Shown here: positions 14,037-36,469 of the stretch, in pieces | How the letters are laid out: the number at the start of each line of letters is the position of its first letter | Numbering within the stretch: the stretch's first letter is position 1 | From: Candidatus Methylomirabilota bacterium | GTDB lineage: Bacteria; Methylomirabilota; Methylomirabilia; Methylomirabilales; Methylomirabilaceae | Direction: 5' to 3' | NCBI GenBank assembly: GCA_028870115.1 | Contig: JAGWQH010000049.1 | Location: 1-37,863, forward strand | Length of the DNA stretch: 37,863 bases | The notes under the pieces: generated by a model | Told to the model about the DNA's origin: nothing | Database searches by the model: none | Seen by the model: the letters and a program-made list of their open reading frames with translations, nothing else | Made by a program: the position numbers and the translations under genes

Positions 14037-15152
14037 ATGACAGCAGAAACCCAACCGATGAGTGCTTCATCTCGTGAATTGACGATCGTTATTCCGACGT
14101 TTCAAGAACGGGACAACGTCGGCCCATTGGTTGGGCTTGTGCGGGAGGCGCTCCCAATGATCTCGTGGGAGATGATCTTCGTCGATGACAATTCCCCGGA
14201 TGGAACCGCAGAGGCCGTCTGGGAGATCGGTCAATCCGATTTCAGAGTGCGTTGCATCAAGCGCATTGGGCGGCGCGGGCTGTCGTCGGCCTGTATTGAA
14301 GGTATGCTAGCCACTGGTGCCACCTACGTGGCGGTCATGGATGCGGACCTGCAGCACGATCCGATGCTTCTCAGATCGATGCTCAATATTCTCCGAGGGG
14401 ACCAGGTTGATCTCGTGATTGCCAGCCGGTACATGCCTGGCGGCAGCATGGGCGACTGGGAAGTAGATCGTGTTCGGATCAGCACATTTGCTACCCGACT
14501 TTCGCGCCTGATAGCGAAGCAGCCGGTTTCGGATCCGATGAGTGGATATTTCATGCTGCGCCGCGAAGTCTTGGAGTCGGAAGTGGAGCGATTGTCCTCC
14601 CTGGGTTTCAAAATCCTGCTCGATATCATTGCTTCTAGTCCGATCCCGCTGCGTCTGGCTGAGGTGCCATTGCAATTTGGCAAGCGGTATGCTGGCGAAA
14701 GTAAGCTTTCCACTGCTGTTGCCTGGGAGTTCCTGCTTCTAATTGGCGATAAGCTGGTCGGGAGATATGTCCCGGTGCGTTTCGTCGCTTTTAGCTCCGT
14801 GGGCGTGGCGGGTGCGTTCGTCCATTTCGCGGTGCTTACAGCCGCCTTTAAGGTGATAGGCCTGAGTTTCCCGGTTAGTCAGGCGGCGGCAGTAATCATC
14901 GCCATGATATTTAACTATAGTCTCAACAATATTCTGACCTATCGCGATGTCTCTAGGAAGGGCTGGGGCTGGTTGCGTGGTCTAGCGTCTTTCATAGTAG
15001 TTTGTGGGTTAGGTGCGATTGCCAACGTGGGCGTTGCATCGTACCTGTTTGGACAACAACAAACCATGTGGGCGTTGGCGGCGATTGCCGGTATCTTTGT
15101 CGGAGCTGTCTGGAACTACGCGGTTTCTTCGCGTTACACGTGGGGCAAGTAG
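14037..15152 (+). CDS. GT2 polyprenol-phosphate glycosyltransferase fused to GtrA-like membrane domain
   Basis: A 371-residue two-domain protein. Residues about 15-235 are a DPM1-like GT2: LTIVIPTFQERDNVGPLV, IFVDDNSPDGTAEAV, VAVMDADLQHDP (DxD), VSDPMSGYFMLRR and VPLQFGKRYAGESKLS. Residues about 245-371 form four hydrophobic helices with FVAFSSVGVAGAFVHFAVLT, NYSLNNILTYR and AVWNYAVSSRYTWG, a GtrA domain. The protein would charge a polyprenyl phosphate with a sugar and help move it across the membrane, giving a donor for GT-C enzymes such as the one at 11802-13433. GGAG lies 10 bases before the ATG. Confidence 0.9.
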   Translation: MTAETQPMSASSRELTIVIPTFQERDNVGPLVGLVREALPMISWEMIFVDDNSPDGTAEAVWEIGQSDFRVRCIKRIGRRGLSSACIEGMLATGATYVAVMDADLQHDPMLLRSMLNILRGDQVDLVIASRYMPGGSMGDWEVDRVRISTFATRLSRLIAKQPVSDPMSGYFMLRREVLESEVERLSSLGFKILLDIIASSPIPLRLAEVPLQFGKRYAGESKLSTAVAWEFLLLIGDKLVGRYVPVRFVAFSSVGVAGAFVHFAVLTAAFKVIGLSFPVSQAAAVIIAMIFNYSLNNILTYRDVSRKGWGWLRGLASFIVVCGLGAIANVGVASYLFGQQQTMWALAAIAGIFVGAVWNYAVSSRYTWGK

Positions 15153-15257
15153 TAAACGATACACCAAGCGCTCAACCGGGAGATTACTGATGCCGACGAC
15201 GAGTGCGAAGATGTGCTATCCTTAAGTGTCCCCTCCGGGTGAGGTAGGATGGGAAAC

Positions 15258-15285
15258 TGGACACCAAAGTCGGGTAAAATACAAT
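15258..15285 (+). promoter_or_regulatory. Putative promoter of the IS3 orfA fragment
   Basis: TGGACA (15258-15263), 16-base spacer, TACAAT (15280-15285). GGAGG at 15289-15293 and ATG at 15301 follow. The probable IS end begins near 15225 (tgtcccctccgggtgagg). Confidence 0.45.
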
Positions 15286-15300
15286 GACGGAGGTGTCAGA

Positions 15301-15546
15301 ATGAAGGGGATTCCACAGGGAAGGTACACGAAGGAGTTTCGAGAGGAAGCGGTAAAACTGGTCACGGAAGGGAACATGACGATACCGGCAGCAGCCCGGA
15401 GGTTGGCATTACCGCCGTCAACGGTGGGGAACTGGCTGCGAGCGAGTACATCGGGAAAGCTATCCGAGGAGTCAATCCCAAAGTTAGTTGACATTGCGAA
15501 GCAGGCTCTTGTGCGAGATCGATGGCAAGTCACTGCTGATTTTTAA
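15301..15546 (+). mobile_element. IS3-family OrfA transposase, truncated
   Basis: From ATG 15301: MKGIPQGRYTKEFREEAVKL, VTEGNMTIPAAARRLALPPS, TVGNWLRASTSGKLSEESIP. This is the HTH_Tnp_1 helix-turn-helix protein of IS3 elements (normal length about 95-110 residues, followed by OrfB with the DDE domain). No OrfB or right end follows; the frame runs to a TAA at 15544-15546 that overlaps the tail of the converging membrane gene. The insertion sequence is therefore only a left end, probably cut when the neighbouring gene arrived. Confidence 0.82.
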
Positions 15547-18293: not shown

Positions 18294-18325
18294 ACTGCAG
18301 CCAATTATAGAACCGTTAATCTGCT

Positions 18326-18525
18326 CTGTGGCTGTTCTGCGGGATGCTGCCGTGGAACGCTGTGCAGGATGGGTGTTCCTGGTCAAGCCGATGGGAGGTG
18401 TAGTGAGGCCTGTCGGAGCGCCATCCTGCACGGCGTCTTCCTCGCCGCGTCGTCTCCATGACGTTCCTGGCGCTCTCTGCGCGGTCGTGCGGACACAGGG
18501 CGTCTCTGCGGACGTGATCCGATGA
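18326..18525 (+). pseudogene. 3' remnant of ABC-2 polysaccharide permease (second copy)
   Basis: From 18326 the frame reads LWLFCGMLPWNAVQDG, the conserved centre of the permease (compare MPPWNAFQDG near 530-555). It then jumps to the region of gatcaatccgatgggatggg (about 930) and follows the first copy, with indels, to its end: ctgcggacgtgatcc then TGA 18523-18525. About 370 bp of the middle are missing. Together with 11494-11641 it brackets the inserted block; about 65 bp of the permease are lost at the insertion point. Confidence 0.82.
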
Positions 18526-18530
18526 ACGCA

Positions 18531-18624
18531 ACCGTAGGGGCGGGGGTTGACTCCGCCCGATCACGGGAATGTTGTAGGGGCGGGATAAATCCCGCCCGTC
18601 CCTCGGGAGGGCCAAAGCCCTCCC
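18531..18624. repeat. Cluster of three GC-rich hairpins
   Basis: Two related units each begin gtaggggcggg (about 18534 and 18572) and fold as GGGCGG/CCGCCC and GGGCGGGAT/ATCCCGCCC. A third, GGGAGGGC-caaa-GCCCTCCC (18605-18624), is a perfect 8-bp stem. They lie 20-110 bp beyond the dsbA-like gene stop (minus strand) and may end its transcription or be REP-like elements. No T-run follows. Confidence 0.65.
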
Positions 18625-18643
18625 CGCCGGCATGGCTTACTCC

Positions 18644-19744
18644 TTATGACTTTCCTTTTGAGGCCGCCAATACCTTTTGCAACTCCTCGTCGATGACCCT
18701 TTCAAACACCGAGAAGGGCTGTGCGCCGAAGACGGGCCGCCCATTGATGAAGAAGGTTGGCGTCGATGACACGCCTAATCGTACCCCGTACTGTACGTCT
18801 TGCTCCACCAAGGGCGCATACTTATCCTGCTGGAGGCACTCGTTGAATCGCGTCATATCAAGACCCAGGGCGGTAGCTGCTTGCTTCAGGCTGGCGACCT
18901 CCAGGTCAGGCGCCTTTGCGAACAACAGGTCATGATATTCCCAGTACTTTCCCTGGTCCCCGGCGCAGCGTGCAGCCTCGGCAGCCTTCTGGGCCTGAGC
19001 GTGGAGACCTCTTATGGGAAAATCGCGGTACGCCAGCTTCACCTTTCCCGAATACTGCTGGAGCAGTTGTTTGGTTACCGACTGGCTTCGCTTACAGAAC
19101 GGACATTGATAATCCGAAAACTCCACGATAGTCACAGGAGCCTCGCGGACCCCTCTGACCGGCGCTCCAGCCGCGCTTACCTCGATTCGAGGCGGCTGCA
19201 TGTGGAGCGTCACCTTGGCGTTGGCCCGGAGCGTGTGGAGGTAGGCTCGCGTCGCGTCTGTTGTTTTCGCCTCTTTGAGCGCCTGGATGATCTGTTCTTT
19301 GACCTCCTCCAATGGTTGCCTTAATTTGTCTTTTTGCCCCTGGTAGAATGCCTCGATTTCGAGTTGTGTCGGCTCCGGTACTTTGGAGTCAACCTCTTGT
19401 TCCAACAACTGGTCCGGTTTGAGGCCCTTGGCAGCGGCAGCTTTCTCGAGGAGCATCACCCCGATCATGTCCTCCAGTCCCATCAGCTTAAGGTCGTAGA
19501 TTTGCGCTTCCAGTTTGACCAGTTGCCCTCGGACCTTTGCCCTGAGAGCCTCTTCCGTGATCGGCTTTCCATCAACCTCTGCCACAACCTCGGCGCCACG
19601 CGTTGTCGTTTCCGCTGCCCATGCGCCGGTTATCCCCAGGTCCCCGAAGGCGCTCGGCGCGCAATTGACGAATACCAGAAGCGCCGCAACGATAAAGACC
19701 CGCCATCCCATCAACCGGTGTCCTCGTTTGAAGATCGAATGCAT
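18644..19744 (-). CDS. SurA/PpiC N-domain-like plus DsbA-type thioredoxin fusion, secreted
   Basis: A 366-residue protein with a Sec-type signal (residues about 12-45, MGWRVFIVAALLVFVNCAPS; the Cys might allow lipidation but the lipobox is imperfect). Residues about 50-185 resemble the helical N-domain of SurA-like chaperones (VVAEVDGKPITEEALRAKVR). Residues about 195-360 are a DsbA/DsbG-like thioredoxin: APVTIVEFSDYQCPFCKRSQ with active site CPFC, and the cis-Pro loop SSTPTFFINGRP. It probably makes or isomerises disulfides in the periplasm. AAGGAGGA lies 7 bases before ATG 19744. It follows the cysteine-rich secreted protein at 19792-20847, a plausible substrate. Confidence 0.87.
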   Translation of the reverse strand: MHSIFKRGHRLMGWRVFIVAALLVFVNCAPSAFGDLGITGAWAAETTTRGAEVVAEVDGKPITEEALRAKVRGQLVKLEAQIYDLKLMGLEDMIGVMLLEKAAAAKGLKPDQLLEQEVDSKVPEPTQLEIEAFYQGQKDKLRQPLEEVKEQIIQALKEAKTTDATRAYLHTLRANAKVTLHMQPPRIEVSAAGAPVRGVREAPVTIVEFSDYQCPFCKRSQSVTKQLLQQYSGKVKLAYRDFPIRGLHAQAQKAAEAARCAGDQGKYWEYHDLLFAKAPDLEVASLKQAATALGLDMTRFNECLQQDKYAPLVEQDVQYGVRLGVSSTPTFFINGRPVFGAQPFSVFERVIDEELQKVLAASKGKS

Positions 19745-19766
19745 CTATTCCTCCTTACTTGTTGTG

Positions 19767-19781
19767 TGTCGGCAATGCCGA
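19767..19781. repeat. Short perfect hairpin between two secreted-protein genes
   Basis: GTCGGC-aat-GCCGAC, 6-bp stem, in the 47-bp gap between the minus-strand genes at 19792-20847 and 18644-19744. It has no T-run, so it may modulate read-through rather than end transcription. Confidence 0.35.
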
Positions 19782-19791
19782 CTCGGAATTA

Positions 19792-20847
19792 TCATTGTGG
19801 AACTTCGGGGATCGTAATCCGGCGAGCCGCCTGCTGCCAGGTGCATCCGAGGGCATTGCACGCGGCCGCCGTCCACGTGACGGTTTGCCCGGCAAACGCC
19901 TTCGCCCTCGACAGATCGAGAGTGTAGCTTATCTCTGCGGATCGTTTTGCTCTAATGTCCTCGCGGACTACCGGGTCGGCTGTTCCGCAGGCGACACCCG
20001 GCTGCGACAGACAGAATGTGTAATATGTCGCCCATGGGACGGACGACCATTTGAATTCTTCAGTAGGTAAGGATGCGGCGTTGCCATCATTGGGCTCGAG
20101 CAGGGCGGGTGCAGCCGGGAGCGGAACGATCGTAATCCGGCGAGCCGCCTGCTGCCAGGTGCATCCGAGGGCATTGCACGCGGCCGCCGTCCACGTGACG
20201 GTTTGCCCGGCAAACCGCCGCACCTGGTCGACTTGCAAGTCATAGTAAAAATTACCGGAGGGGCTTCCCGATTCAATATACTCAACTACTACCGAGTCCT
20301 CCGCGCCGCATGCAACTCCAGGGCGGGTGATGCACAGCTTGTAGAACGCCGCCCCGGCTCCAGGTTTTACGACCACGAGTTTGGGAAATGCATAGAGGGT
20401 CTCTCCCACGTTAGGCAGATCCAAGACCGGCGCTTGGGGGATCGCAGACCAGGTCATCCGGTGAGGCGCCGCCTGATAGGTGCAGCCCAGATTGTTGCAC
20501 GCGGCTACCTGCCATCCGAACGTTTTCCCCTGCAAGTGCTTCGGCAGACCGCCAGGCGGAGCGAAGCTCGTAGCAGTAATATCTTCATACACCTGCGTCC
20601 CCGGCCCGCCGCATGCCTGCTGAGCCTGGAACGGCTGCGGTCCAAGCTCAGCCACGCACAGTCGATAGGCCGTGGCCTCCTGTACCGGCTGCCATTTGAA
20701 TGTGGGGGATGGGTTGAGACCGTACACCGTGACTTCATCGTTAGGACTGACCAGGAGCGGGGCGTAGGGTGGCGCAGCGCCTCCGGCCCCGACGACGCCC
20801 AGAGCCACAAGGCCGATTGCCAGCAGATGCGTCGCCTTCGATTTCAT
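19792..20847 (-). CDS. Secreted protein with three Fn3-like repeats rich in paired cysteines
   Basis: A 351-residue protein from ATG 20847 (MKSKATHLLAIGLVALGVVG, a signal peptide ending near AGGAAP). Three repeats of about 105 residues follow. Each begins with AP.L..PN....L, then YxLC and C(G), then ends TVTWTAAACNALGCTWQQAA or the variant FGWQVAACNNLGCTYQAAPH. The fold is probably fibronectin type III-like, with conserved Cys pairs (ACN.LGC and LC...P..AC). No enzymatic motif is seen. I do not recognise a named family. The disulfide-rich design and the adjacent DsbA-type gene suggest an exported, oxidised surface protein. The open frame extends 17 codons upstream, but the signal peptide marks the start. 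Confidence 0.7.
   Translation of the reverse strand: MKSKATHLLAIGLVALGVVGAGGAAPPYAPLLVSPNDEVTVYGLNPSPTFKWQPVQEATAYRLCVAELGPQPFQAQQACGGPGTQVYEDITATSFAPPGGLPKHLQGKTFGWQVAACNNLGCTYQAAPHRMTWSAIPQAPVLDLPNVGETLYAFPKLVVVKPGAGAAFYKLCITRPGVACGAEDSVVVEYIESGSPSGNFYYDLQVDQVRRFAGQTVTWTAAACNALGCTWQQAARRITIVPLPAAPALLEPNDGNAASLPTEEFKWSSVPWATYYTFCLSQPGVACGTADPVVREDIRAKRSAEISYTLDLSRAKAFAGQTVTWTAAACNALGCTWQQAARRITIPEVPQ
19810..20215. repeat. 88-bp perfect direct repeat within the Fn3-like gene
   Basis: 19810-19897 and 20128-20215 are identical over 88 bases (gatcgtaatccggcgagccg ... cccggcaaac), coding the end of repeats 3 and 2. The spacing of 318 bp equals 106 codons. Perfect identity against divergent flanks suggests recent duplication or gene conversion. 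Confidence 0.93.
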
Positions 20848-22502: not shown

Positions 22503-22735
22503 GCCCCTCTTCTCGCTTGACAGCAGCGCCCGGACAGGGTATGAAAGAGGCCATATGCACGGCGAGATCCTGATCGTTATTCCAGCATGCTCGGATCGGA
22601 TCCCTTCCTTTCCTCCTTTCTCCTCCAGTGGGTGTGGCCCTGGTCTTCTGTCTGGGCGTGCTCTATATCTGTTTCATCTACGTGACGATCGTCGGGAGAT
22701 TGTCTTCATGGCCAAAGCGTAAGTACGGATGCACG
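22503..22735 (+). pseudogene. Mini-remnant of GT2 + DUF2304 gene pair with its promoter
   Basis: 22503-22590 matches 5551-5640: the promoter (TTGACA 22517-22522, TATGAA 22540-22545), ATG 22555 and the first codons MHGEILIVIPA. The sequence then jumps to the end of DUF2304 (gcgtgctctatatctgtttc, matching about 6506), acgatcgt, and cttcatggc..., finishing at atgcacgga just before the permease start. The central ~850 bp are gone. The promoter may still drive the exporter genes downstream. Confidence 0.85.
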
Positions 22736-23571
22736 GAGACAGTGTGAAAGTGATGGACGCGCCAGTGTACGATTCGGCCCGTCGCCAGCCGCCGATGTTC
22801 GAAGAACTGTTCGACATCGTGCGGTATCGGGATCTGGTGGTGCAGTTGGTGCGGCGAGATATCGTGACCCGTTATAAACGCTCGGTATTCGGTGTGGCGT
22901 GGACGATGCTCCAACCGCTCGCGATGATGATGGTGCTGACCATTGCCTTCTCTCAGGTCCTCGGAACGACCCGATCCTATGCTGCGTACACCCTGAGCGG
23001 TCTGGTGTTCTGGCAGTTTTTCGCCCAGACGACGATGATGGCCTCGCGCCAGTTGATCGCGGGTGGGAGCCTGCTCCACCGGATCTACATTCCCAAAACT
23101 CTCTTTGCGTTCTCCGCCATCGGAACAGGCTTGATCCACATGCTCCTGTCGCTCATCCCCATGGGAGTCGTTATGGTGGCGACGGGCACTCCGCTCAGAC
23201 TCACGGCCCTGTTGCTCCCGGTTCCGATCCTGTTCTTGGTTGCCTTTTCCCTTGGGATCGGCCTCCTGATCTCGGCTGGAGCCGCATACTTTCCCGATGT
23301 GAACGAGATCTATGAGATCGTACTGAGCGCCTGGATGTATCTGACCCCCATTATCTACCAAGAGGACATCATCCCGGAATCGGCCCGCTTTTTTGTGTTG
23401 ACGTTGAACCCGATGCACCACCTGCTCCGACTGTTCCGTTTGATCCTCTACCAAGGGGTGTGGCCGAGCTCCACGCAGCTCGCTTCGGCAGTGGTTGCAG
23501 CGTTCACGACGCTTGCAATCGGGTGGATCGTCTTTACGAGGAAAGCGAATGAGTTGGCCTATCGAGTCTGA
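22729..23571 (+). CDS. ABC-2 polysaccharide/teichoic-type export permease
   Basis: A 280-residue permease with about six transmembrane helices. The cytoplasmic start has VRYRDLVVQLVRRDIVTRYK, then RSVFGVAWTMLQPLAMMMVL, FWQFFAQTTM, and YFPDVNEIYEIVLSAWMYLT with PIIYQEDIIPE, all Wzm/TagG/KpsM features. It forms the inner-membrane path for lipid-linked glycan export. Start codons at 22729 (ATG), 22744 (GTG) and 22753 (ATG) are all possible; homology begins later. Its 3' end overlaps the ATPase gene by 23 bases. It is intact, unlike the two decayed permease copies at 313-1099 and 11494/18326. Confidence 0.9.
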   Translation: MHGDSVKVMDAPVYDSARRQPPMFEELFDIVRYRDLVVQLVRRDIVTRYKRSVFGVAWTMLQPLAMMMVLTIAFSQVLGTTRSYAAYTLSGLVFWQFFAQTTMMASRQLIAGGSLLHRIYIPKTLFAFSAIGTGLIHMLLSLIPMGVVMVATGTPLRLTALLLPVPILFLVAFSLGIGLLISAGAAYFPDVNEIYEIVLSAWMYLTPIIYQEDIIPESARFFVLTLNPMHHLLRLFRLILYQGVWPSSTQLASAVVAAFTTLAIGWIVFTRKANELAYRV

Positions 23572-24313
23572 GCCGCGCGAAGTGGTCCTTCGGCTGGAGC
23601 GGGTGTCGGTCCGCTATCGGGTAATGCGCGAAAGGATCGACACCATCAGGGCGTATCTGATACACCAGCTCAAGCAGCGGGTGCGTTACGATGAATTCTG
23701 GGCGCTTCAAGACGTGGACCTGGAGGTGTACAAGGGCGAGGTTCTGGGGGTTATCGGACGGAACGGCGCCGGGAAGAGCACCCTCCTTAAGGTTGTCTCC
23801 CGTGTGCTTCAGCCCACCAAAGGGCGAGTATGGATCAAGGGGCAGGTCGCGCCCCTCCTGGAGCTGAGCGCGGGATTTCACCCGGAACTCACCGGGCGAG
23901 AAAATATCTTCCTGAACGGCGCCCTGCTGGGTTTTTTGCGGAAAGAGATGGAGGCGAAAATCGATCAGATCGTAGAGTTTGCCGAATTGTGGGACTTCAT
24001 TGACGCGCCGCTGAGGACCTATTCGTCGGGGATGACGGCCAGGCTCGGTTTTGCCATCGCCACCGACGTCAGGCCCGATATTCTCATTGTGGACGAGGTG
24101 CTGGCGGTGGGGGATGAGGCGTTTCGGCAGAAGAGCGAGGCGCGCATGAGAGGGTTTCAGGCGCGGGGGACGACGATTCTGTTCGTGTCCCACACCGCGG
24201 CGGCGATCAAGACGATGTGCCAGCGGGCGGTCTGGCTCGACAAGGGGATGGTCCGCATGGTTGGGGAGGCGGAGAACGTGCTCAATATTTACCAGCAGGA
24301 GTGTCAATCATGA
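23549..24313 (+). CDS. ABC-type polysaccharide export ATPase
   Basis: A 254-residue ATPase from ATG 23549 (gaggaaag upstream). It has VLGVIGRNGAGKSTLLK (Walker A), the YSSGMTARLGFAIA signature, PDILIVDEVLAVGD (Walker B and Glu), and ILFVSHTAAAIKTMC (H-loop). The N-terminal VSVRYRVMRERIDTIRAYLI matches the start of the ATPase remnant at 4187. It lacks the long C-terminal carbohydrate-binding domain of classical Wzt, so recognition of a capped chain end is not expected from this subunit. It powers export with the permease overlapping it. Confidence 0.93.
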   Translation: MSWPIESEPREVVLRLERVSVRYRVMRERIDTIRAYLIHQLKQRVRYDEFWALQDVDLEVYKGEVLGVIGRNGAGKSTLLKVVSRVLQPTKGRVWIKGQVAPLLELSAGFHPELTGRENIFLNGALLGFLRKEMEAKIDQIVEFAELWDFIDAPLRTYSSGMTARLGFAIATDVRPDILIVDEVLAVGDEAFRQKSEARMRGFQARGTTILFVSHTAAAIKTMCQRAVWLDKGMVRMVGEAENVLNIYQQECQS

Positions 24314-24322
24314 AGACGCTGA

Positions 24323-26089
<1,767 letters not shown>

Positions 26090-26151
26090 CCGAACCGTCG
26101 CAACGCCACCGAGGCCTGGATGTAGATCGCCCGTCAGCAACTAAAGTAAGA

Positions 26152-26328
26152 TCCCTTTACCTCGACTTTGTGGAGGACGGCATCACGCTCTTTGATCGGG
26201 ATGGCTTTTTCTCGCGCGTGCTTCAACGCCTGAGACAGCGGATGACAGAGTTGGGGTCAGTCCGCCGCCGGATGGGCGAAGCAGGTGAGACTCATGCCAT
26301 CTCAATGGAATCCGCTCGCATGAGCTAA
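26152..26328 (+). pseudogene. Nucleotidyltransferase tail joined to lhgO tail (hybrid remnant)
   Basis: One uninterrupted frame reads SLYLDFVEDGITLFDRDGFF, SRVLQRLRQRMTELGSVRRR, then MGEAGETHAISMESARMS and a TAA at 26326-26328. The first part is the C-terminus of an MNT-type nucleotidyltransferase (LYLDF..DGI.L.DRD.FF is typical). The last 18 residues match the LhgO C-terminus LGETGETYAMPMEFARTG, also at DNA level. No start codon or RBS is evident, so it is probably a deletion product. The rest of 26090-26391 is empty apart from a gggaggaagcaggtgagg stretch. Confidence 0.62.
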
Positions 26329-26391
26329 GGGGAGGAAGCAGGTGAGGGTGGGCGGAGCGGCGGCGGACTTTTCATTAGGCTGGAGGCTTAT

Positions 26392-27612
26392 ATGGTAGCG
26401 CCTCTTCTTCCAGGTATGCGCGTTCTCGTGACGGGGGGCGCGGGATTCATCGGATCGTTTGTGGTGGATCGCCTGCTGGCCTTGGGTCACGAGGTGCGCG
26501 TATTCGATGGTCTTGACCCCCAGGTCCATCCGCGGGGTGTCCCAGTCTATCTCTCATCAGGTGCCGAACTGCTGACGGGAGACGTCCGTAATCGCGGGCA
26601 GTGCGCCAAAGCTCTTGAAGGCGTTGAGGTGGTCGTGCATGCAGCGGCGGCCGTCGGCGTCGCCCAGTCTCTCTATAGAGTGGAGCATTACGTGGACGTC
26701 AACGTCAGGGGGACGGCAACGCTCCTGCAGTGCATCGCGGAGCGGCAGCATCCGCTCCGGAAGGTGGTAGTGCTGACATCCATGACCGGATATGGAGAAG
26801 GGGTCTATCGGCGACCCTCCGACGGCCGGCACATGCGGGTGGGCATCCGAAGCGAGGGCGAGATCCAGCGGTACGGCTGGGATCCTGTCTGTCCGGAGAC
26901 TAAAGAGCCGCTGGAGCCCGTCCCGACCCCTGAGGGAGCTGAACTGATGGCCCGGAACGTTTATGCTCTCTCGAAGCGGTATCAGGAAGAGCTCGCCCTG
27001 AGCCTCGGGTCCGTCTATCGGTTTCCGGTAGTCTGCCTCCGGATGTTCAATGTGTACGGGCCACGGCAGTCGCTAAGCAATCCCTACACCGGCGTCCTGG
27101 CCATCTTTCTCAGCCGGCTCATGACAGGTCAGCCGCCCATCGTCTACGAGGACGGGCTGCAGACTCGTGATTTCGTCTCCGTCCATGATGTGGTGGATGC
27201 CATTGTAGCGGCGATCGCGTCGCCGGCGGCGGACGGAGAGGTGATCAACATCGGCAGCGGGGTCCCTCAGAGCATCGGCGAGGTGGCGAGGGTACTGGCG
27301 AACGTGGCGGGGGTTTCATCGATCAAGCCAACCATTACAGGCCAGTTCCGGCGGGGCGACGTGCGCCATTGCATCGCGGATCTGAGCAGGGCTCGACGGC
27401 TCCTGGGCTTTACGCCCAAGGTCACGTGGGAGGCCGGGCTTATGGAGCTGGCGCGGTGGTGCAAGGCGGCGGATGCGGCGGATCGCTTCGACCAGGCTGA
27501 TCACGAGCTCCGCGCGCGAGGACTGCTCTCCGAAAGGCTCGATGCGCAGGGAGGGGCGAAATACCATGAAGCGGGTACTCATCACGGGGAGCAGCGGCCT
27601 CATCGGGTCTGA
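26392..27612 (+). CDS. NAD-dependent epimerase, dTDP-L-rhamnose 4-epimerase-like
   Basis: A 406-residue extended [23 protein letters not shown] (NAD loop), [41 protein letters not shown] (catalytic Thr/Ser), [20 protein letters not shown] (Tyr-x3-Lys), [20 protein letters not shown] and [18 protein letters not shown]. The LDPQVH motif and the long insert between the Ser and Tyr motifs resemble WbiB-type dTDP-L-rhamnose 4-epimerases, which give dTDP-6-deoxy-L-talose. That would extend the rml pathway of this window. Substrate is inferred from pattern memory only. Its last 47 bases overlap the next gene, so the pair is coupled. Confidence 0.72.
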
Positions 27613-28624
27613 AGCCGTGACCTTTTTTGACCAACGCGGGTGGGATGTCCATGGGATAGATAATAATATGCGCAGGGCCTTCTTCGGCCCAGATGGCGAT
27701 ACCACCTGGAACCTGGAGCGGCTCCGCCGGAACACGCGGCGCTTTACCCATCGCGAGCTGGACATCCGTCATCGGGAGGCGATTTTCGCCATCCTGCGAG
27801 ACCACCGCCCGGACCTGGTCGTTCACTGCGCCGCACAGCCCTCCCACGATCTGGCCAAGGATCGGCCCTTCGAAGACTTCGAGGTCAACGCGGTCGGGAC
27901 GTTGAATCTCCTGGAAGCGGCCCGTCGCCACTGCCCGGAGACGCCGTTCATCTTCATGAGCACCAACAAGGTCTATGGCGACGCGCCGAACGAGAAGCGC
28001 CTCGTCGAGCTGCCGATAAGGTGGGATTACGCAGATCCTGCCGACTTCGAGGGGATCGACGAGCAGTGCAGAATTGACGCAAGTCTGCATAGCCTCTTCG
28101 GCGCATCCAAGCTGGCAGCCGATGTGATGGTCCAGGAGTATGGCCGATATTTCGGTATGCCGACGGTATGCTTCCGGGGTGGATGTCTGACTGGTCCCAA
28201 TCATTCAGGCGCGGAGCTTCACGGCTTCTTGGCCTATCTGACGAAGGCGATCAAGGAAGACCGCGTCTATCGCATTTACGGCTACAAGGGTAAGCAGGTG
28301 AGGGACAACATTCACTCTTACGACGTCTGTGCCGCCTTTCTGGCATTCTATGAGTGCCCCCGTCAGGCTGCCGTCTATAATCTTGGGGGTGGTCGGGGCA
28401 ATAGTGTGTCGATCCTTGAGGCGATCGCCCGGTTCGAGGAACTGATGGGGAAGCGACTGATGGTGGAGTATATAGAAACGAACCGGGTCGGCGACCACAT
28501 CTGTTACATCAGTGACCTGCGACGATTGAAGGCGGACTACCCCGGCTGGAATATTACGCGGAACCTCGATGTCATATTTCAGGATCTGGCCGGTGTGGGG
28601 TGTGAGCGAGCCTCCGGCCCCTAG
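27566..28624 (+). CDS. CDP-paratose 2-epimerase-like SDR with Phe in place of catalytic Tyr
   Basis: A 352-residue SDR from ATG 27566 (GGAGGGG upstream). It shows [80 protein letters not shown] and [20 protein letters not shown]. The MSTNKVYGD and CLTGPNHSG segments are those of the CDP-tyvelose epimerase-like subfamily (RfbE). The catalytic Y-x3-K is replaced by F-G-A-S-K. I recall related proteins with the same Phe, so it may define a subfamily with altered chemistry or substrate. It may act on the same sugar pathway as the epimerase it overlaps. Substrate unknown. Confidence 0.72.
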
Positions 28625-28689
28625 TCGCTTGCCACTCGTGGAGAGCGATTCCAGGCCCTACAGAGGCGCCTTGTTGACAAAGACCTCCA

Positions 28690-31104
28690 GTGAAACTTTC
28701 TAAGGGCACTGCATACCAAGCCATCAGCACCATTTCTGTCGGCCTTGTCATTTTCTTCCTGGCTGCGCTCCTGCTGCCGCCCTGGTTCCCCCGGATGCCG
28801 GAAAGCGGGCTCGACTCATCATGGATGTTTGTCCTAAACCATGCTTTCACCAACCACTTACAATTCGGGAAAGAGATCATCTTCACGTTCGGACCGTATG
28901 GATTCCTTTATTCAAGCAGTTTTCTTTATTCAAATCTGTTCTATCCTGAACACTATGGGGTTCAAATTGTTTTTTGGCTGGTCATAGCAGGTGTCATCGC
29001 AGCTTCTATAAATTTCTTATTGAAAAAAGGCACCACTTCTTTTTTCACGTTAATTCCGCAAATTATTTCGGTCTCGGGTATGATCATCACACTTGTGCTT
29101 TTTGGAAGCGATGTTGTTCTTTTAACTATTCCTTTATTGTTTATCTTTGTGTTATTTCAAGCTGAAAAGCAGATACATCATTTCAGTGGCGTATTATTTC
29201 TCGCGCTCTGCGCTTTCATCGGCCTTATTAAATTTACCTTCGCCATATGTGGATTCACCATGGTTCTATGCGCCGAAATGTATCGTTTTTCAAAAGGGAA
29301 ATACCTGCCCATATATTTGGGAACATACATGCTCTTCTTTGCGCTCTTTTTTCTGTTGGCCCATCAGCATCTCGAAAATCTTGTTGCCTTTATCACAACC
29401 TCCTTGGAGGTTGCCGGTGGGTACAGTGAAGCCATGCAGCTTTTCAGCCCATCGGGTGAAATTATGGCCTTTATCGGCCTTGTTTTCTGTTTACTCATCC
29501 TCATTGCATGCGCGGAGTGGCGCTTCGGCCGCTGGCGTGAAGGCGACTGGCGAGGTCTGATTCTTCTGCTCAGCATCGTGATATTCAATTTCATAACCTT
29601 CAAAGCAGGTTTCGTTCGCCATGATGGCCATACCCTGATCGCCTGGGGAAGCCTGGTTATCTGTATTACAATCTATTCGACGAGGTTTTATCAGGATGTT
29701 CCTGTACGAACGTGGCGATTGGCGCTGGCAATCCTGTTTATTTCCGCGGCTGGTATGTCGATGTGGTATGATGCCCGCCACCATTTTAGGAATCCTCTGA
29801 ATGTGGTCAGATTGACATTGACCAGAAGGCTATCGAAGCGAATTGTTGCAATTAAAGAACTGGGACTGAATGAACGTGTGACTCGTCTATCGGAAGAGTA
29901 TAGAGCCGCATTGGAGAAAATACGCAACGCCAACCCGTTCCCGCCGATTCAAGGCGCAGTCGATCTTTACCCTTGGGATGAATCCCTTATATTGGCGCAC
30001 GGGCTGCGCTACGCGCCGCGTCCGGTCTTTCAGAGTTATTCAGCATACAGCAAGCCTTTGATAGACGCGAATCGGACGCATCTGCGGGACGAGAAGGCTC
30101 CGACAACGCTGCTGTTCGACGTGCAAACCATCGATAGCCGATTTCCCGCTATGGAGGATGGCGCCTCGTGGCCGGATATATGGGCGCGTTACGATCCGAT
30201 TGATGTAAGCGGCGACTATCTCATTCTAACCAGGCGCACTACGGCGCGCATGGTCCAGATCGTCCCGGTTGCCACCACTGCCGTTCCGTTTTCCAAGCCC
30301 TTGAAGATGCCGCAAGTGTCCGGTCTTACTTGGGTTGCTATAGATGTGAAGAAAACTATGCTCGGGACCGTCATGAATCTATTGTTTAAGTTGCCGATTC
30401 TTGAATTGGATCTGACCATGGCCGATGGCTCTACAAGGATCGAGCGTATTGTGCCTAACGTCGCATCCATGGGCTTCGTCATAAATCCCGTCATTGAGTC
30501 GAACGCAGACTTCGCCCAGGTTTCTTTGAATAATCGGGCCCAATTAGCGCCGTCCGATCAAGCAGTGGCGATGACAATCGAGGGGCCTGAATACGTCTCG
30601 TGGTTATACAACAACGCCATTCGCGTGTCAGTCAGCACACTTACGATTGATGGCCGGATTGAGCGCAAGCCGTCTCCGAAGCTGCTGGCCGGTTCACATG
30701 CGCCAACCAGATCGCTGCGTATCTTGGCGCCGCCGACTGGCAACGAGCTTCATCCTGCGCGGGAAGGTGGCCACGTAGACGAGTTGGAGGCAACAGGTAA
30801 CAAGATTTACGTCAGTGGCTGGGTCAAGCTCGACAATACGGAACGGGACCAGACAATCACTGTCACATCGTCCATAAGGCCCGGTAGTTACTTCTTGAAA
30901 ACCGTGAAGCGGCCCGACGTGGCGTCGGCACTCAGAAACGAAGGCTTGGCGCAGAGCGGTTTTCGGATCATCTTACGGTTTGACAGCCCTGCTTCAGCGA
31001 ATAGGGCTGCGAAAGAGCTGTGTGTCTATGCTCAATCGGAGACAACATCTGTGACGGTGGTCCATTCAAACAATCAACTGTGTCGGCGGTTGCTGCCGGG
31101 CTAG
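28690..31104 (+). CDS. Large membrane protein, putative GT-C-type, paralogue of 32111-34492
   Basis: An 804-residue protein with about ten hydrophobic segments up to residue 380 and a large soluble C-terminal part. The first loop after helix 1 has ESGLDSSWMFVLNHAF and FGKEIIFTFGPYGFLY. Other conserved points shared with the paralogue are GGYSEAMQLFSP, FVRHDGH, VDLYPWDESLI and the C-terminal RPDVASAL...SGF. The layout (acidic residue in the first external loop, many helices, periplasmic C-domain) is that of GT-C glycosyltransferases, but I know no characterised member. The start is GTG 28690 with a poor RBS; the first residues lead straight into helix 1. Codon use is A/T-richer than upstream in the first half. 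Confidence 0.65.
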   Translation: MKLSKGTAYQAISTISVGLVIFFLAALLLPPWFPRMPESGLDSSWMFVLNHAFTNHLQFGKEIIFTFGPYGFLYSSSFLYSNLFYPEHYGVQIVFWLVIAGVIAASINFLLKKGTTSFFTLIPQIISVSGMIITLVLFGSDVVLLTIPLLFIFVLFQAEKQIHHFSGVLFLALCAFIGLIKFTFAICGFTMVLCAEMYRFSKGKYLPIYLGTYMLFFALFFLLAHQHLENLVAFITTSLEVAGGYSEAMQLFSPSGEIMAFIGLVFCLLILIACAEWRFGRWREGDWRGLILLLSIVIFNFITFKAGFVRHDGHTLIAWGSLVICITIYSTRFYQDVPVRTWRLALAILFISAAGMSMWYDARHHFRNPLNVVRLTLTRRLSKRIVAIKELGLNERVTRLSEEYRAALEKIRNANPFPPIQGAVDLYPWDESLILAHGLRYAPRPVFQSYSAYSKPLIDANRTHLRDEKAPTTLLFDVQTIDSRFPAMEDGASWPDIWARYDPIDVSGDYLILTRRTTARMVQIVPVATTAVPFSKPLKMPQVSGLTWVAIDVKKTMLGTVMNLLFKLPILELDLTMADGSTRIERIVPNVASMGFVINPVIESNADFAQVSLNNRAQLAPSDQAVAMTIEGPEYVSWLYNNAIRVSVSTLTIDGRIERKPSPKLLAGSHAPTRSLRILAPPTGNELHPAREGGHVDELEATGNKIYVSGWVKLDNTERDQTITVTSSIRPGSYFLKTVKRPDVASALRNEGLAQSGFRIILRFDSPASANRAAKELCVYAQSETTSVTVVHSNNQLCRRLLPG

Positions 31105-31189
31105 CTCCATACGGCGTCTTACATAATCACATGCAGGTGAGGCGATTTCGGCAGCCGGTAGCGTGCTGCGCTACTCAGAAAGGTCTCCG

Positions 31190-31972
31190 ATGAAGTTTTC
31201 GGTGGTTATCCCGGCGCGCAACGAGGCGGGCAACATCGGCCCCACGTTGGATGGTGTCCGGGAGCGACTCCGTCGGGAGAGGATCACCTACGAGATCGTG
31301 GTTGTGGACGACGGCAGTTCCGATACCACTGTCGAGGAGGTACACGCCAGGTCCGCGGCCGATCCGGGAGTCCGGCTGGTCCACAATCAGGGTCCGCACG
31401 GATTTGGTTACGCCGTCCGCTGCGGGCTTGACGCCATGACCGGTGATGCCGTCGCGATTGTCATGGCCGACGGGTCCGACAGCCCGGATGACCTGGTCCG
31501 ATATTTTTACATCCTCCGAGACCGGGCCGAGTGCGCCTTCGGATCGAGGTTTCTGCCTGGGAGCAGTGTAACGGGCTACCCGCGTATAAAGCTCGTCATC
31601 AACCGCTTGGCAAACCGCTTTATTCGCCTTTTGTTCGGATTCCGCTACAACGACGTGACCAACGCCTTCAAGGCGTACCGAGCCACCGTCATCCGGGGCT
31701 GCCGGCCGTTCCTGTCGCCTCACTTTAACTTAACCGTCGAGTTGCCGCTGAAGGCCGTTGTCCGCGGCTACTCCTACGAGGTCATCCCCATCGCCTGGTG
31801 TCAGCGCGCGCAGGGAATGTCGCACTTGCATCTGCGGGAGATGGGAAGCCGCTACCTCTTCATCGTCCTCTACATCTGGCTGGAAAAACTCTTGACCCGC
31901 GGCGACTACCGCCGCCCGCCTGGCGAGGTCTTCAAGCAATGGTCGCAGACCTCAACAGAGGCCGATCCATGA
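31190..31972 (+). CDS. GT2 family glycosyltransferase
   Basis: A 260-residue GT-A enzyme from ATG 31190 (GAAAGG 7 bases upstream): MKFSVVIPARNEAGNIGPTL, IVVVDDGSSDTTVEEV, AIVMADGSDSPDDL (DxD variant), FGSRFLPGSS, NDVTNAFKAYR and VIPIAWCQRAQGMSHLHLRE. It resembles polyprenyl-phosphate glycosyltransferases (DPM1/ArnC-like) without the extra membrane helices, apart from a hydrophobic segment near residue 235. It probably makes a lipid-linked sugar donor for the neighbouring GT-C-like proteins. The stop is followed by a short gene tail at 31992-32114. Confidence 0.85.
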   Translation: MKFSVVIPARNEAGNIGPTLDGVRERLRRERITYEIVVVDDGSSDTTVEEVHARSAADPGVRLVHNQGPHGFGYAVRCGLDAMTGDAVAIVMADGSDSPDDLVRYFYILRDRAECAFGSRFLPGSSVTGYPRIKLVINRLANRFIRLLFGFRYNDVTNAFKAYRATVIRGCRPFLSPHFNLTVELPLKAVVRGYSYEVIPIAWCQRAQGMSHLHLREMGSRYLFIVLYIWLEKLLTRGDYRRPPGEVFKQWSQTSTEADP

Positions 31973-31991
31973 CTACGCTTCGGGAAATGGG

Positions 31992-32114
31992 GTGTTGCTA
32001 TGGGCATCTGTTGCGTCGATTCTCCTTACGATCCACGCGCTTGCCGTCCATCAGTCCTTTGGTGAACCGCGCTACACCGTCGTGGTGACACGTTGGCCTC
32101 GGGGGGATTCGTGA
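31992..32114 (+). pseudogene. C-terminal tail of a membrane protein (remnant)
   Basis: A 40-codon frame reads VLLWASVASILLTIHALAVH, QSFGEPRYTVVVTRWPRGDS, stop. One transmembrane helix followed by H....GEPRY.V is a familiar C-terminal end of multi-spanning glycosyltransferases (GT39-like). No start or upstream portion is present. Its TGA (32112-32114) overlaps the GTG at 32111 of the next gene, so an intact ancestor was probably translationally coupled to it. Confidence 0.5.
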
Positions 32115-34492
32115 GCAGCGTCTGGTCTCGAACGGTGACCTTGGTCATTGGACCGCGCGCGATGGAGCGGTTATTCTCAACCGACGCCGGCGACGCGCGA
32201 TCGTTTCGAAGGTTGATGGCGTTTTCAATCGTTGCCAGCATCTCAATGGGTTTTGCCCTCGGCATAGAGCCGATAATTCCCGGCCTTGATCCATCCTTTA
32301 CGTATGCCTATAACTACGCCGCAGCGAGAGGTTTAAGGTGGGGGCGGGAGTTTATCTCGACCTATGGCCCGTATTGCTACCTGATCCACGCGGTCGACAT
32401 GGCCGATCTTGTGGAGCGCAGGATCGTCTCCGATCTCTTGCTTGCTGTTGCCTCCGGGATCGCGGCCGCGGCATATCTTCAGTCGATACCGGGTTTGCGA
32501 CCTGCTGCGAGACTGGGTCTCGCGATAGCGCTCGTCTATGCCATCAGTGCCCAAGGCAAGGAAAACGGTTGGTTTGCTCTGTTTCTCCTTGTGCTCCTCA
32601 TCGGCCTTCATGCGCGCGAGCAACAGCGGAGTCTGACGGCGTACGCAATCGCGGGCGCTCTTGCCGGATTGTATGTGCTTATGAAGTTCTCTCTTGGATT
32701 CGGAGCAGCGATCACGCTGATCATCGGGAATGTCCTCGCGCCGCGACCAATGCTGGCTGTGTACCGGCTGGCGGTGAGTGTGCCTGCTGCCGCCATCGGT
32801 TTCCTGATCGGTTGGACTGCCTATGGCGGCGCCCTCAGCGGCATCGGCGCGTATCTGGCCACAGGCTGGGAGATCAGCTACGGATATTCCTCCGCGATGA
32901 GTTTGGCGCCGCATGGCTGGCAGATCGAGGTGATGGGCTTCTTGGTGTGGTTTGCGCTCATGATGATCTGGGTCGTCGCGCAACGAACCCCCCGCAACCT
33001 GTTGACCTTGGCCGGCTTGGGTTTCCCGCTGTTTGTCGTCTGGAAGCACTCGATTGTGCGACAGTACGGCCACGTGTTTCTTCTTGTGACGTTTGGCATC
33101 CTTGTCATCGTGCTCCTTCTCGCGGAAGCGAGTTCGGTCTGGCGCTGGAAGCGCACGCTACCGATTGCCGCAGCATTGCTTGTACTTTTGACGATCCCTT
33201 GGTTCAATGCGGAGACAGACAGATCATACGCGGTTGACCAACTGAAGAAGCGCCTGGCCGGTCCACTTGAGTTCCCTGGACTGAAAGCTCTGGCCGACCT
33301 GCGTCACCTCTCGGTCTACCGGGCAGAACTGACGCGGACTTCGGAACCGGCGCTGCGGAAGAGCGTGTTGCCGGAATCGATGCGAGCGGTGATCGGCGGA
33401 TCATCCGTTGATGTCTATCCATGGGATATCAGCTACGTGCCCGCCAACGGGCTGTCGTGGGTGAATCGCCCGCTACCGGCCTCCTTCAGCACCTATACGC
33501 CTGCGCTTGATAGGCTGAACGCGGCCTTCTTCGAGTCCGAGGTCAGACCGGACTACCTCATTTGGCATACCGATGTCGGGGTGAATAGTATTGACGGCCG
33601 ATACCTGTTCTGGGATGAGCCGCAAACGCTTCGCGCGATTGTCAATTACTACGACGTGGTGATGGCGGAGCCCCGGGTATTCCTGCTGCGCGGTCGAACA
33701 CAACCGCGGTTTGCAGCCCCTCAGCCGATAACAACACTGACCGTGCCGTGGAACGCCTGGACACCCGTACCACAAACCGACGGGGTGATACTGGCGGACG
33801 CGTCGTTTACGCGGCGACTGAGCATCCGAATGATTCGGACGCTCTTCCGCGAAGATCCTGTGAGGATGTCGCTACGATTCAGCGACGGCGACGAGGTAAC
33901 CTACCGTCTCGTTCCGGACAACATGGAGGGCGGGTTGTGGATAAGTCCCCACGCCGCGACAGTCGATGAACTCCGTTCTCTGTTTCATGGCGGCCCCGCG
34001 CGTCGGGTCACCGCGATCCGGTTTAGCGGAGGGGTGGTCAGCAGATTCTCTCCCTCTATCGTCGTATCATGGTCTCAATTGAGACCTCTTGCCATACCTG
34101 ATCCCGGCGTCCGGTCAGTGCCTATCCGTACGTACGGGAGAGGTGACGGACCATGCGCCGGCCATATCGACAGGGTCTTTCGGGGCCGCGATTGGTATGG
34201 CCGTGATGCCATTTTTGCGGTAGGGTGGGCGCGCGATGGCGATGCGTCGATTGTGTCCGGCAACCTGTGGCTGGTGAGTGGCGACGGTCGTGTTCTGGCC
34301 ACCGACGTACAGACAGGCCTCTCCAGGCCGGATGTCGCTCAGGCGTTGGGCACTCCGAGTCTCGGCGCATCGGGCTGGATGGCAAGCGCCCGAACTGACA
34401 GGGAGGCCAATGGTGTGAGGTTTGTCGTGCGCACACGAAAGGGAAAGTTGGCCGGCTCGTGCAATCAAGCGAGCGCCGGACGAACGCCGTAA
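32111..34492 (+). CDS. Large membrane protein, putative GT-C-type, paralogue of 28690-31104
   Basis: A 793-residue protein. GTG 32111 is chosen because ggggg precedes it and it overlaps the TGA of the preceding tail (GTGA); TTG 32093 and ATG 32162 are alternatives. It shares with the paralogue IPGLDPSFTYAYNYAA, WGREFISTYGPYCYLI, GYSSAMSLAPHG, VRQYGHV, VDVYPWDISYVPANGL and RPDVAQALGTPSLGASGW. About ten helices lie within residues 40-370, then a soluble domain with conserved YPWD. The C-terminal domain (from about residue 700) has FAVGWARDGDASIVSGN-type beta pattern. Role unknown; glycan transfer is the best inference from fold layout and neighbours. Confidence 0.65.
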   Translation: MSSVWSRTVTLVIGPRAMERLFSTDAGDARSFRRLMAFSIVASISMGFALGIEPIIPGLDPSFTYAYNYAAARGLRWGREFISTYGPYCYLIHAVDMADLVERRIVSDLLLAVASGIAAAAYLQSIPGLRPAARLGLAIALVYAISAQGKENGWFALFLLVLLIGLHAREQQRSLTAYAIAGALAGLYVLMKFSLGFGAAITLIIGNVLAPRPMLAVYRLAVSVPAAAIGFLIGWTAYGGALSGIGAYLATGWEISYGYSSAMSLAPHGWQIEVMGFLVWFALMMIWVVAQRTPRNLLTLAGLGFPLFVVWKHSIVRQYGHVFLLVTFGILVIVLLLAEASSVWRWKRTLPIAAALLVLLTIPWFNAETDRSYAVDQLKKRLAGPLEFPGLKALADLRHLSVYRAELTRTSEPALRKSVLPESMRAVIGGSSVDVYPWDISYVPANGLSWVNRPLPASFSTYTPALDRLNAAFFESEVRPDYLIWHTDVGVNSIDGRYLFWDEPQTLRAIVNYYDVVMAEPRVFLLRGRTQPRFAAPQPITTLTVPWNAWTPVPQTDGVILADASFTRRLSIRMIRTLFREDPVRMSLRFSDGDEVTYRLVPDNMEGGLWISPHAATVDELRSLFHGGPARRVTAIRFSGGVVSRFSPSIVVSWSQLRPLAIPDPGVRSVPIRTYGRGDGPCAGHIDRVFRGRDWYGRDAIFAVGWARDGDASIVSGNLWLVSGDGRVLATDVQTGLSRPDVAQALGTPSLGASGWMASARTDREANGVRFVVRTRKGKLAGSCNQASAGRTP

Positions 34493-34504
34493 GCGGCGAC
34501 TGTC

Positions 34505-34605
34505 CGGAGGGCGCGCGCCTGACGAGAACGCCCGTGACATCATACGCGACGTGGAGACGCACGGGTTTCTGCAGGCCGCCCCCCGGCCATAGCCGAACTG
34601 CACCG
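34505..34605 (+). pseudogene. 3' remnant of the sulfurylase/APS-kinase gene
   Basis: 34505-34592 matches the last ~85 bases of the gene at 24350-26089: cgcgcgcctgacgagaacgc, then tggagacgcacgggtttctg and caggccgccccccggccat, stop TAG 34590-34592. The downstream ccgaac..caccgtc also matches. It encodes the final DENARD...[12 protein letters not shown] and nothing more. It lies 19 bp before the sulfotransferase gene, which suggests that a second sulfurylase copy once stood directly upstream of it. Confidence 0.85.
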
Positions 34606-34623
34606 TCCTGAAAGGAGCGGCCT

Positions 34624-35514
34624 TTGAGTTCAGATCCGTTTCATGAGATTCGCAACCGGTTATCGGTTCCCGCCTGCCTGATCAACAGCCTGCCGAAATC
34701 GGGCACCCACCTGCTCAAAAAGGTGGTCGGGCTCTTGCCCGGCATGCATCCTGTCGAGTTCCATCTCGGGCCGGAACGGTTCAATCCGGCAACAGACGGC
34801 GGGACGGACGGCGTGCCCGGCGAATATCCGCCGACCGTGATCCCGCTGGGAGTGGGCAGACCCCGTCCGGCGTCGCGCGAAGAGGTCTCCCGCGCGCTGG
34901 CGCAATACGTGACGCCGGGGCGCTATGCGACGGCCCATGTCCCGTTCTCACCCGGATTGGCGCTGGTGCTCAACGAGCTGAAGATCACGATGGTCACAAT
35001 TATCAGGGACCCCAGAGATGTGGCGGTCTCTCATGCCGCCTACATCTGTAGCCTCCCGCCAGACAACCCCGTCGTCGGCACCCCTTTACACCGCTATTAC
35101 CAATCCCTTTCGGACGGGGCGCGCCTCATGACATCCATCGTGGGTGTCTGCAAGGAGCCCGACGGGCCCGTATTGCTGAGCATCAAAGATCGACTTGAAG
35201 GCGTCTTGCGATGGGAGTCGCAGCCCTTCAACTATACCACCAGGTTTGAACGGTTGGTCGGGCCGCAAGGCGGGGGATCCCGGGACGAACAGCTCCAAGA
35301 GATCCGCGCTATCGCCCGTCATCTGGGGATCGACTGTTCGGATCGCGAGATAGAGGCTGTAGCCGATCAGCTCTTTGGCGGGACCGGCACCTTTCGAAGG
35401 GGCGTGATCGGGGGGTGGAAGGCGCAGTTTACGGACGAGCACAGGCAGGTCTGTAAAAAGCTGATCGGACGGTTATTGATCGATCTGGGGTATGAGCAAG
35501 ATGACAATTGGTAG
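34624..35514 (+). CDS. PAPS-dependent sulfotransferase
   Basis: A 296-residue protein with a TTG start supported by AAAGGAG 7 bases upstream. CLINSLPKSGTHLLKKVVGL is the 5'-phosphosulfate loop (P-K-S-G-T), and ITMVTIIRDPRDVAVSHAAY the 3'-phosphate-binding strand/helix (R-D-P-R-D). A late FRRGVIGGWKAQFTDEH resembles the RKG.IGDW PAPS-binding motif of sulfotransferases. It transfers sulfate from PAPS to a hydroxyl or amine, probably on a sugar of this locus. It overlaps the next gene by 23 bases. Confidence 0.88.
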   Translation: MSSDPFHEIRNRLSVPACLINSLPKSGTHLLKKVVGLLPGMHPVEFHLGPERFNPATDGGTDGVPGEYPPTVIPLGVGRPRPASREEVSRALAQYVTPGRYATAHVPFSPGLALVLNELKITMVTIIRDPRDVAVSHAAYICSLPPDNPVVGTPLHRYYQSLSDGARLMTSIVGVCKEPDGPVLLSIKDRLEGVLRWESQPFNYTTRFERLVGPQGGGSRDEQLQEIRAIARHLGIDCSDREIEAVADQLFGGTGTFRRGVIGGWKAQFTDEHRQVCKKLIGRLLIDLGYEQDDNW

Positions 35515-36469
35515 CGTGAACGGGCGGCCCATGCGGACGATTCTCTTCTACAGGAACTTTCGGGGCTTCACCGGCGGACACCTCAAGGTGTACGATTATT
35601 TCAATCATGTCAGGGCGTCGTCCGGGTATCGTCCCCGGATCTGGTTCTCAAGGGACACGATCTGGGACGGAAGCAATCCATGGCTGGCCCTCAAAGAGCA
35701 GGGCCTCGAGGCCTGGCCGCCGGTCGATCCGGATCTGCTCTTTCTGGCCGGCTTGGACTGGTTGATCCTGGATCCTGATCGGCGGGACCGTTCGTCGATT
35801 CCGATCATCAATCTGATCCAGGGCGCAGAACATGCCCTACCAGACAACCCGCGGTATCCGTTTTTGCAGCACAAGGCGATCCGGATCTGTGTCAGTGAGG
35901 AGGTCGCGGCGGCCATTCGCGACACACGCCGGACGAATGGACCGGTCTTTGTGATCCCGTGCGGGTTGGATCTTGGGCCGCTTCCCTCCCCGATGGCGGA
36001 TGCCGACAAGGACGTTGACCTCGTCATCGCGGCGATGAAGCAGGCCGACCTGGGACGTCAGGTAAAACGGCGCCTGGATCGACCGGGCCGGCGGATCGAG
36101 CTGTTGACGACGCGGCTCTCGAGGCCGGATTTTCTGAGCTGGGTCAATCGGGCGAAGGTCGTCGTGGTCCTCCCCAGGCGCGTGGAGGGATTTGGTCTCC
36201 CCGCCCTGGAAGGGATGGCGCTGGGTACCGTGGTTGTCTGCCCCGATGTGATCGGCAACCGCTCGCTCTGCCTGCCGGGCGAGAACTGTTTCCGGCCGGA
36301 GTATACGCTGGAAGGGATCGTGGAGGCCGCCGAGAGCGCGTTGCGCCTGCCGCCGGATCAACGCCGTCGGATGGTGGAACAGGGCCGCTTGACGCCAGGC
36401 CGGCACGGCCTCCCGCAGGAACGGCAGGCATTTTTGGAGATTCTGGACCGGGCGGATCAGTTGATGTGA
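35492..36469 (+). CDS. GT4-like glycosyltransferase
   Basis: A 325-residue GT-B protein. The N-terminus has ILFYRNFRGFTGGHLKVYDY (a G-G-H substrate loop), the middle INLIQGAEHALPDN and ICVSEEVAAAI, the C-terminal donor domain VVVLPRRVEGFGLPALEGMA with the E-x7-E motif and PGENCFRPEY. It is on the short side for GT4. ATG codons at 35492, 35501 and 35531 are possible; conserved sequence begins at the last. It lies between two sulfotransferases with overlaps at both ends, so all three probably act on one product. Confidence 0.82.
   Translation: MSKMTIGSVNGRPMRTILFYRNFRGFTGGHLKVYDYFNHVRASSGYRPRIWFSRDTIWDGSNPWLALKEQGLEAWPPVDPDLLFLAGLDWLILDPDRRDRSSIPIINLIQGAEHALPDNPRYPFLQHKAIRICVSEEVAAAIRDTRRTNGPVFVIPCGLDLGPLPSPMADADKDVDLVIAAMKQADLGRQVKRRLDRPGRRIELLTTRLSRPDFLSWVNRAKVVVVLPRRVEGFGLPALEGMALGTVVVCPDVIGNRSLCLPGENCFRPEYTLEGIVEAAESALRLPPDQRRRMVEQGRLTPGRHGLPQERQAFLEILDRADQLM

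Follow-up and report, generated by a model that had tools for sequence, protein, structure and literature searches.

Two paralogous membrane proteins of a surface-glycan locus are predicted members of an undescribed GT-C glycosyltransferase family

Proteins A and B, encoded in the window (the whole stretch of 37,863 nucleotides analysed here), belong, with a probability of about 85%, to a single undescribed GT-C glycosyltransferase family, with a presumed mechanism based on polyprenyl-phosphate-linked sugars. The novelty of the family is its absence from Pfam and NCBIfam; it affiliates to a known kind of enzyme (GT-C) and is not a new kind of system. GT-C enzymes complete many cell-surface glycans, and families outside the profile databases leave the corresponding pathways unreadable in genomes. 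The original prediction, a possible GT-C family working on lipid-linked sugars, is supported by the predicted fold, the topology, a profile alignment with the Emb arabinosyltransferases and the gene context, from which we infer the activity. The following features of the window are referred to below.

14037..15152, + strand: GT2-GtrA fusion that may provide both donor synthase and flippase, upstream in the same glycan locus
26392..27612, + strand: SDR epimerase/dehydratase, nucleotide-sugar type
27473..28624, + strand: SDR epimerase/dehydratase, closest to CDP-tyvelose 2-epimerase among solved structures
28690..31104, + strand: protein A, 804 aa, GTG start, predicted GT-C glycosyltransferase
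28807..28899, + strand: first external loop of A, residues 40-70 (GLDSSW ... FGKEIIFTFGPY), with D42 and E62 as predicted catalytic/active-site acids
31163..31972, + strand: GT2 separating A and B, closest among solved structures to dolichyl-P-mannose synthase and GtrB (sll0501), likely start ATG 31190
32093..34492, + strand: protein B, 799 aa from TTG, deep paralog of A, predicted GT-C glycosyltransferase
34624..35514, + strand: sulfotransferase (PF00685), downstream of B
35492..36469, + strand: GT4 glycosyltransferase, downstream

The genes listed from 22729 to 36469 lie on one strand in the order ABC-2 exporter pair, PAPS synthase, two SDRs, A, GT2, B, sulfotransferase and GT4. The GT2 separating the pair had been taken for a lipid-sugar enzyme; among solved structures it is indeed most like dolichyl-P-mannose synthase and GtrB, and it is predicted to be a polyprenyl-phosphate-sugar synthase that makes the donor. 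The window most likely holds genes for an exported surface glycan that is sulfated; here the GT2 would load a sugar onto polyprenyl phosphate and A and B would add sugars on the outside. The locus suggests sulfation of this glycan; the PAPS synthase (24350-26089) and the sulfotransferase (34624-35514) flank the A/B pair. Sampled relatives of the PAPS synthase match its two halves only separately.

Protein A is predicted to consist of 11 transmembrane (TM) helices (residues ~7-364), an external beta-rich domain (~420-655) and a C-terminal RPDV extension (~693-790). Protein B has an alternative start, the ATG at 32162. The description of the two as paralogous membrane proteins of about 800 residues proved correct: both open reading frames were found, and they align over the whole length in BLASTP (E = 3e-27, 23% identity, 817 columns). 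All shared motifs named in the original prediction occur in both sequences: GLDSS in A and GLDPS in B, FGKEIIFTFGPY in A corresponding to WGREFISTYGPY in B, GYSEAM and GYSSAM, VRHDGH and VRQYGH, VDLYPWD and VDVYPWD, and RPDVASAL and RPDVAQAL. The last of these, the RPDV motif, is not family-wide; it is part of the C-terminal extension, which is present in 10 of 57 members. In the phylogenetic tree B groups with the family member of locus L026 (42% identity), and A falls into a different, well-supported clade. A recent tandem duplication is therefore ruled out, and to judge from their sequences A and B are ancient paralogs from separate clades. No further family members were found in the window's own genome; the other sampled genomes of the genus lack the family, and just one further carrier was found among those sampled from the phylum. 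Another paired case occurs in an Omnitrophota genome (L016), with two adjoining members at 7863-9869 and 9988-11946.

The predicted structures support a GT-C-like fold for both proteins. As expected from the original prediction, a GT-C core is present in the AlphaFold models of full-length A (pLDDT 86.0, pTM 0.87) and of B, which was folded as the membrane domain alone (pLDDT 86.9, pTM 0.87). A Foldseek search of the PDB with A placed EmbB (E 2.9e-4, prob 0.99), EmbA-EmbB, EmbC and yeast STT3 in the first four ranks and Pmt4 in the eighth; lectin-like and jelly-roll matches came lower. Whole-chain superposition was poor, with TM-scores by query or target of 0.15-0.26 for ranks 1-4, except for one value of 0.31 with STT3. 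For the membrane domain of B, ranks 1-10 were all GT-C proteins (STT3/OST, AftA, Pmt4 and ALG9; prob 0.94-1.00), with TMq values of 0.40-0.50, in themselves moderate, against 0.12-0.30 for the non-GT-C matches listed. STT3 came first, a GPI-transamidase chain (9ub7_B) took rank 11, and PglB and AftB ranked lower. The E-values for B lie between 0.02 and 0.2, all above 0.01, so the fold argument for this protein rests on the consistency of the list and not on a single match. The GT-C core of B's membrane domain also occurs in STT3/PglB (GT66), Pmt4 (GT39), ALG9 (GT22) and AftA (GT85); these enzymes have no sequence match to the family and differ in their extracytoplasmic domains. Polytopic transporters or flippases of glycan intermediates would likewise fit 11 TM helices and a glycan locus; yet the top 11 Foldseek matches of B include no transporter, the proteins carry a large conserved external domain, and GtrA or ABC-2 exporter genes are already there, which makes a transport role very improbable.

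A scan of 84,980 species genomes with the search patterns [LS]D[SPF]S.. and [FWQ]G[KRS][ED].. yielded 64 family loci across ~16 phyla, among them Cyanobacteriota, Bacteroidota, Chlorobiota, Pseudomonadota, Thermodesulfobacteriota, Verrucomicrobiota, Lentisphaerota, Acidobacteriota, Myxococcota, Actinomycetota, Synergistota, Bacillota and Omnitrophota. Conservation was assessed in an alignment of 57 members, i.e. A, B and 55 relatives from ~16 phyla. The motifs GLDxSW, FGxD-IIFTYGP, GYxxAM, FKxGFVRxDxH, K181, VDxxPxE, RPVFQSYSAYT and IDxRxP are family-wide. Residues G60, T66, G68, K181 and Y501 are invariant; D42, S44, F65, P69, M249, K305, R310, D425, R444, P445, Q448, L457, N461 and D482 are nearly so. 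Position 62 is D or E in 57/57 sequences, and D42 and R310 are each present in 56/57. Conservation is partly selected in the two catalytic-motif stretches that served as scan patterns; K181, R310 and the C-terminal motifs lie outside these patterns and their conservation is unselected. The term 'undescribed' holds for Pfam and NCBIfam: profile searches with A, B and the 55 relatives gave no family in either database, the curated cut-off of NCBIfam remaining unreached. None of the 57 members matched PF04602 at E up to 1, and the curated Pfam GT-C profiles (PMT_2, STT3 and others) were not matched at their cut-offs, the best score being that of one member with PMT_2 (E 0.0067). A profile search of the PDB with the family alignment found no solved structure. 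The signature GLDxSW, FGxDIIFTYGPLG, an invariant K, FKxGFVRxDxH and RPVFQSYSAYT finds the family in ~16 phyla.

The family-averaged charge alternates according to the positive-inside rule, giving 11 TM helices with the N-terminus inside and the C-terminal domain outside. By this rule every conserved residue is external, including GLD and FGxE, in agreement with the proposed location of the GLD motif in the first external loop. Loop 1 contains D42 just after TM1, D/E62 twenty residues on, and TYGP. Further conserved sites on the outer side are K181 at the turn between TM5 and TM6, GYxxAM in an amphipathic loop helix and, in the predicted topology, K305/R310/D312/H314 after TM9 and the C-terminal domain. 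D42 and D/E62 are predicted as the catalytic/active-site acids. The GPI transamidase contains GT-C-like non-catalytic subunits, and the match of B to 9ub7_B, a chain of that complex, would fit accessory or regulatory glycan-binding subunits that keep a GT-C fold without catalysis. Nonetheless, the retention of D42, D/E62, K181 and R310 in 56-57 of 57 very divergent sequences is as expected for an active site and renders a non-catalytic role improbable.

Among known GT-C enzymes, the Emb proteins (GT53, PF04602; EmbA, EmbB and EmbC), the first Foldseek matches of A, have the GT-C fold in common with the family. When the family profile was compared by HMM-HMM alignment with that of 32 Emb proteins, retrieved through PF04602, the stretch from loop 1 to TM7 aligned with the Emb catalytic region (score 42.7, 184 columns), with GLDxSW opposite the catalytic DDGY and PLG opposite PFG. 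Taken alone this match is weak (P 6e-4, prob 28%). It exceeds both sets of controls: reversed profiles gave scores of 22.8-24.4, and none of twelve block-shuffled Emb profiles went beyond 33.0. PMT_2-Emb, a known GT-C pair, reached 54.1. Kinship with the Wzy/O-antigen ligase group was considered and rejected, with a profile score of 23.0 that is no better than the reversed controls. The active site of M. smegmatis EmbB is lined by D285, D286 and E313, the first two of which correspond to residues needed for activity in relatives (PMC7341804). The HMM-HMM alignment is what places D42 on D285, as a putative equivalent. In both groups an N-proximal TM helix is followed by an Asp motif, an acidic residue comes 20 (family) or 28 (EmbB, D285-E313) residues later, and the C-terminal domain is external and beta-rich; in addition, a clade near A has as neighbours DprE1, DprE2 and a phosphoribosyltransferase, enzymes of the kind that supply the Emb donor. 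In contrast to Emb, the family has 11 TM helices without a large domain between TM1 and TM2, carries the motif GLDxSW...FTYGP instead of DDGY...PFGW, and occurs in ~16 phyla, mostly Gram-negative, with PF04602 unmatched in 57 members.

The genome context of the family would fit a role in lipid-linked sugar transfer, genes for such sugars recurring near its members. A polyprenyl-phosphate-sugar synthase or GtrA gene was located near the family gene in 32/64 loci, within the flanks examined, and in 0/11 control stretches, taken from the genome of the window and searched with identical thresholds, a small control from one genome; in the remaining half of the loci the flank examined held no such donor gene. 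A close relative of the SDR at 27473 together with a GT2 or GtrA-GT2 gene accompanies the family gene in 13/64 loci, distinct from the seven cassette loci described next. Around the nearest relative of B (L026), glycan genes were looked for and none were seen. In seven loci a cassette of UbiA-HAD, DprE1, DprE2, SDR, FAD enzyme and GtrA is complete or almost so. By profile matches, the UbiA-HAD protein is decaprenyl-phosphate phosphoribosyltransferase-like, and DprE1 and DprE2 match NF053785 (E 3e-128) and NF053786 (E 2e-53), both under the curated cut-off. The six cassette members included in the tree form one supported clade (100/99) near A, with A as its direct sister in a weak placement (88/31). 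The combination of UbiA phosphoribosyltransferase, DprE1, DprE2 and GtrA points to arabinofuranose, which is most likely the sugar in the clade next to A. The tie of this clade to DprE1/DprE2, the mycobacterial arabinose-donor enzymes, offers a route to testing arabinofuranose addition in other bacteria. One of the arabinofuranose cassettes (L014) stems from a record titled Bacillus subtilis strain SK7B5, with 64% GC and a cassette closest to proteobacterial ones; this assembly is probably mislabelled or contaminated.

An architecture of UbiA-HAD, small flippase and GT-C protein has been shown for ribofuranose in Citrobacter (GT136, PMC11127046). By its published description, GT136 (Citrobacter youngae ORF12, from the three-component pentofuranose systems) resembles the family in its 11 TM helices, a small helical region after TM1, a beta-rich C-terminal domain, and the accompanying UbiA-HAD donor synthase and small flippase (PMC11127046). 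The two differ in that DprE1/DprE2 and GtrA accompany one clade of the present family and GT2 enzymes the others.

The GT-CA families GT53, GT83, GT39 and GT57 use lipid-P-monosaccharides as donors, and GT66 a lipid-PP-oligosaccharide (PMC10920833). Because of GT66, we retain the reading that A and B are GT-C enzymes with a lipid-diphosphate-linked oligosaccharide as donor, i.e. an oligosaccharyltransferase or a surface-glycan polymerase or ligase. The lipid-PP-oligosaccharide enzyme STT3 is the top Foldseek match for the membrane domain of B, and the GT122-124 polymerases have a long loop near the N-terminus and conserved Arg, Asp and His (PMC10920833). However, the lipid-P enzymes Emb, AftA and Pmt4 rank near STT3, and half of the loci carry lipid-monophosphate sugar genes (DPMS/GtrB-type GT2, UbiA-DprE1-DprE2, GtrA), like the pathways that use lipid-P-monosaccharides, so that such a donor appears unlikely. 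The family most likely comprises lipid-P-monosaccharide transferases of surface-glycan systems. In the predicted mechanism, polyprenyl phosphate would be charged with a sugar on the cytoplasmic side, in the window by the DPMS/GtrB-like GT2 (31163-31972), and the loaded lipid would then be flipped outward, probably by a GtrA-type flippase; A and B would each pass that or a related sugar to a growing surface polysaccharide or lipid. D42 may act as general base or transition-state-stabilising acid, assisted by D/E62. The lipid phosphate might be held by K181/K305/R310/H314, and the acceptor glycan may be contacted by the external C-terminal domain. With slightly better than even odds, the family is more widely distributed than Emb, its A-related clade includes the arabinofuranosyltransferases of those Gram-negative bacteria whose own DprE1/DprE2 serve to make polyprenyl-phosphate-arabinofuranose, other clades use GT2-made hexose or deoxyhexose donors, and A and B differ in specificity within one sulfated-glycan locus.

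Upstream, the window contains a dTDP-rhamnose gene set (6678-10188) of a nucleotidyltransferase, a 3,5-epimerase, an SDR and RmlD. It is followed by a membrane protein of 543 residues (11802-13433, + strand) without a Pfam match and with a DAHGFRQT motif after TM1 (PWSIPFEFPLYQW), which resembles a further type of GT-C protein; locus L027 has a relative of it close to its family gene, at 13657. The gene at 15543-18431 on the - strand encodes a protein that combines a Wzy_C domain with a long TPR tail, and no part of the window is more unusual in composition than the region around it (15001-20000). In a check for foreign origin or contamination of the contig (C49), its tetranucleotide make-up fitted the genome with the exception of this Wzy region. 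The genes at 6678, 18644 and 24350 share only 43-51% identity with copies in the genus.
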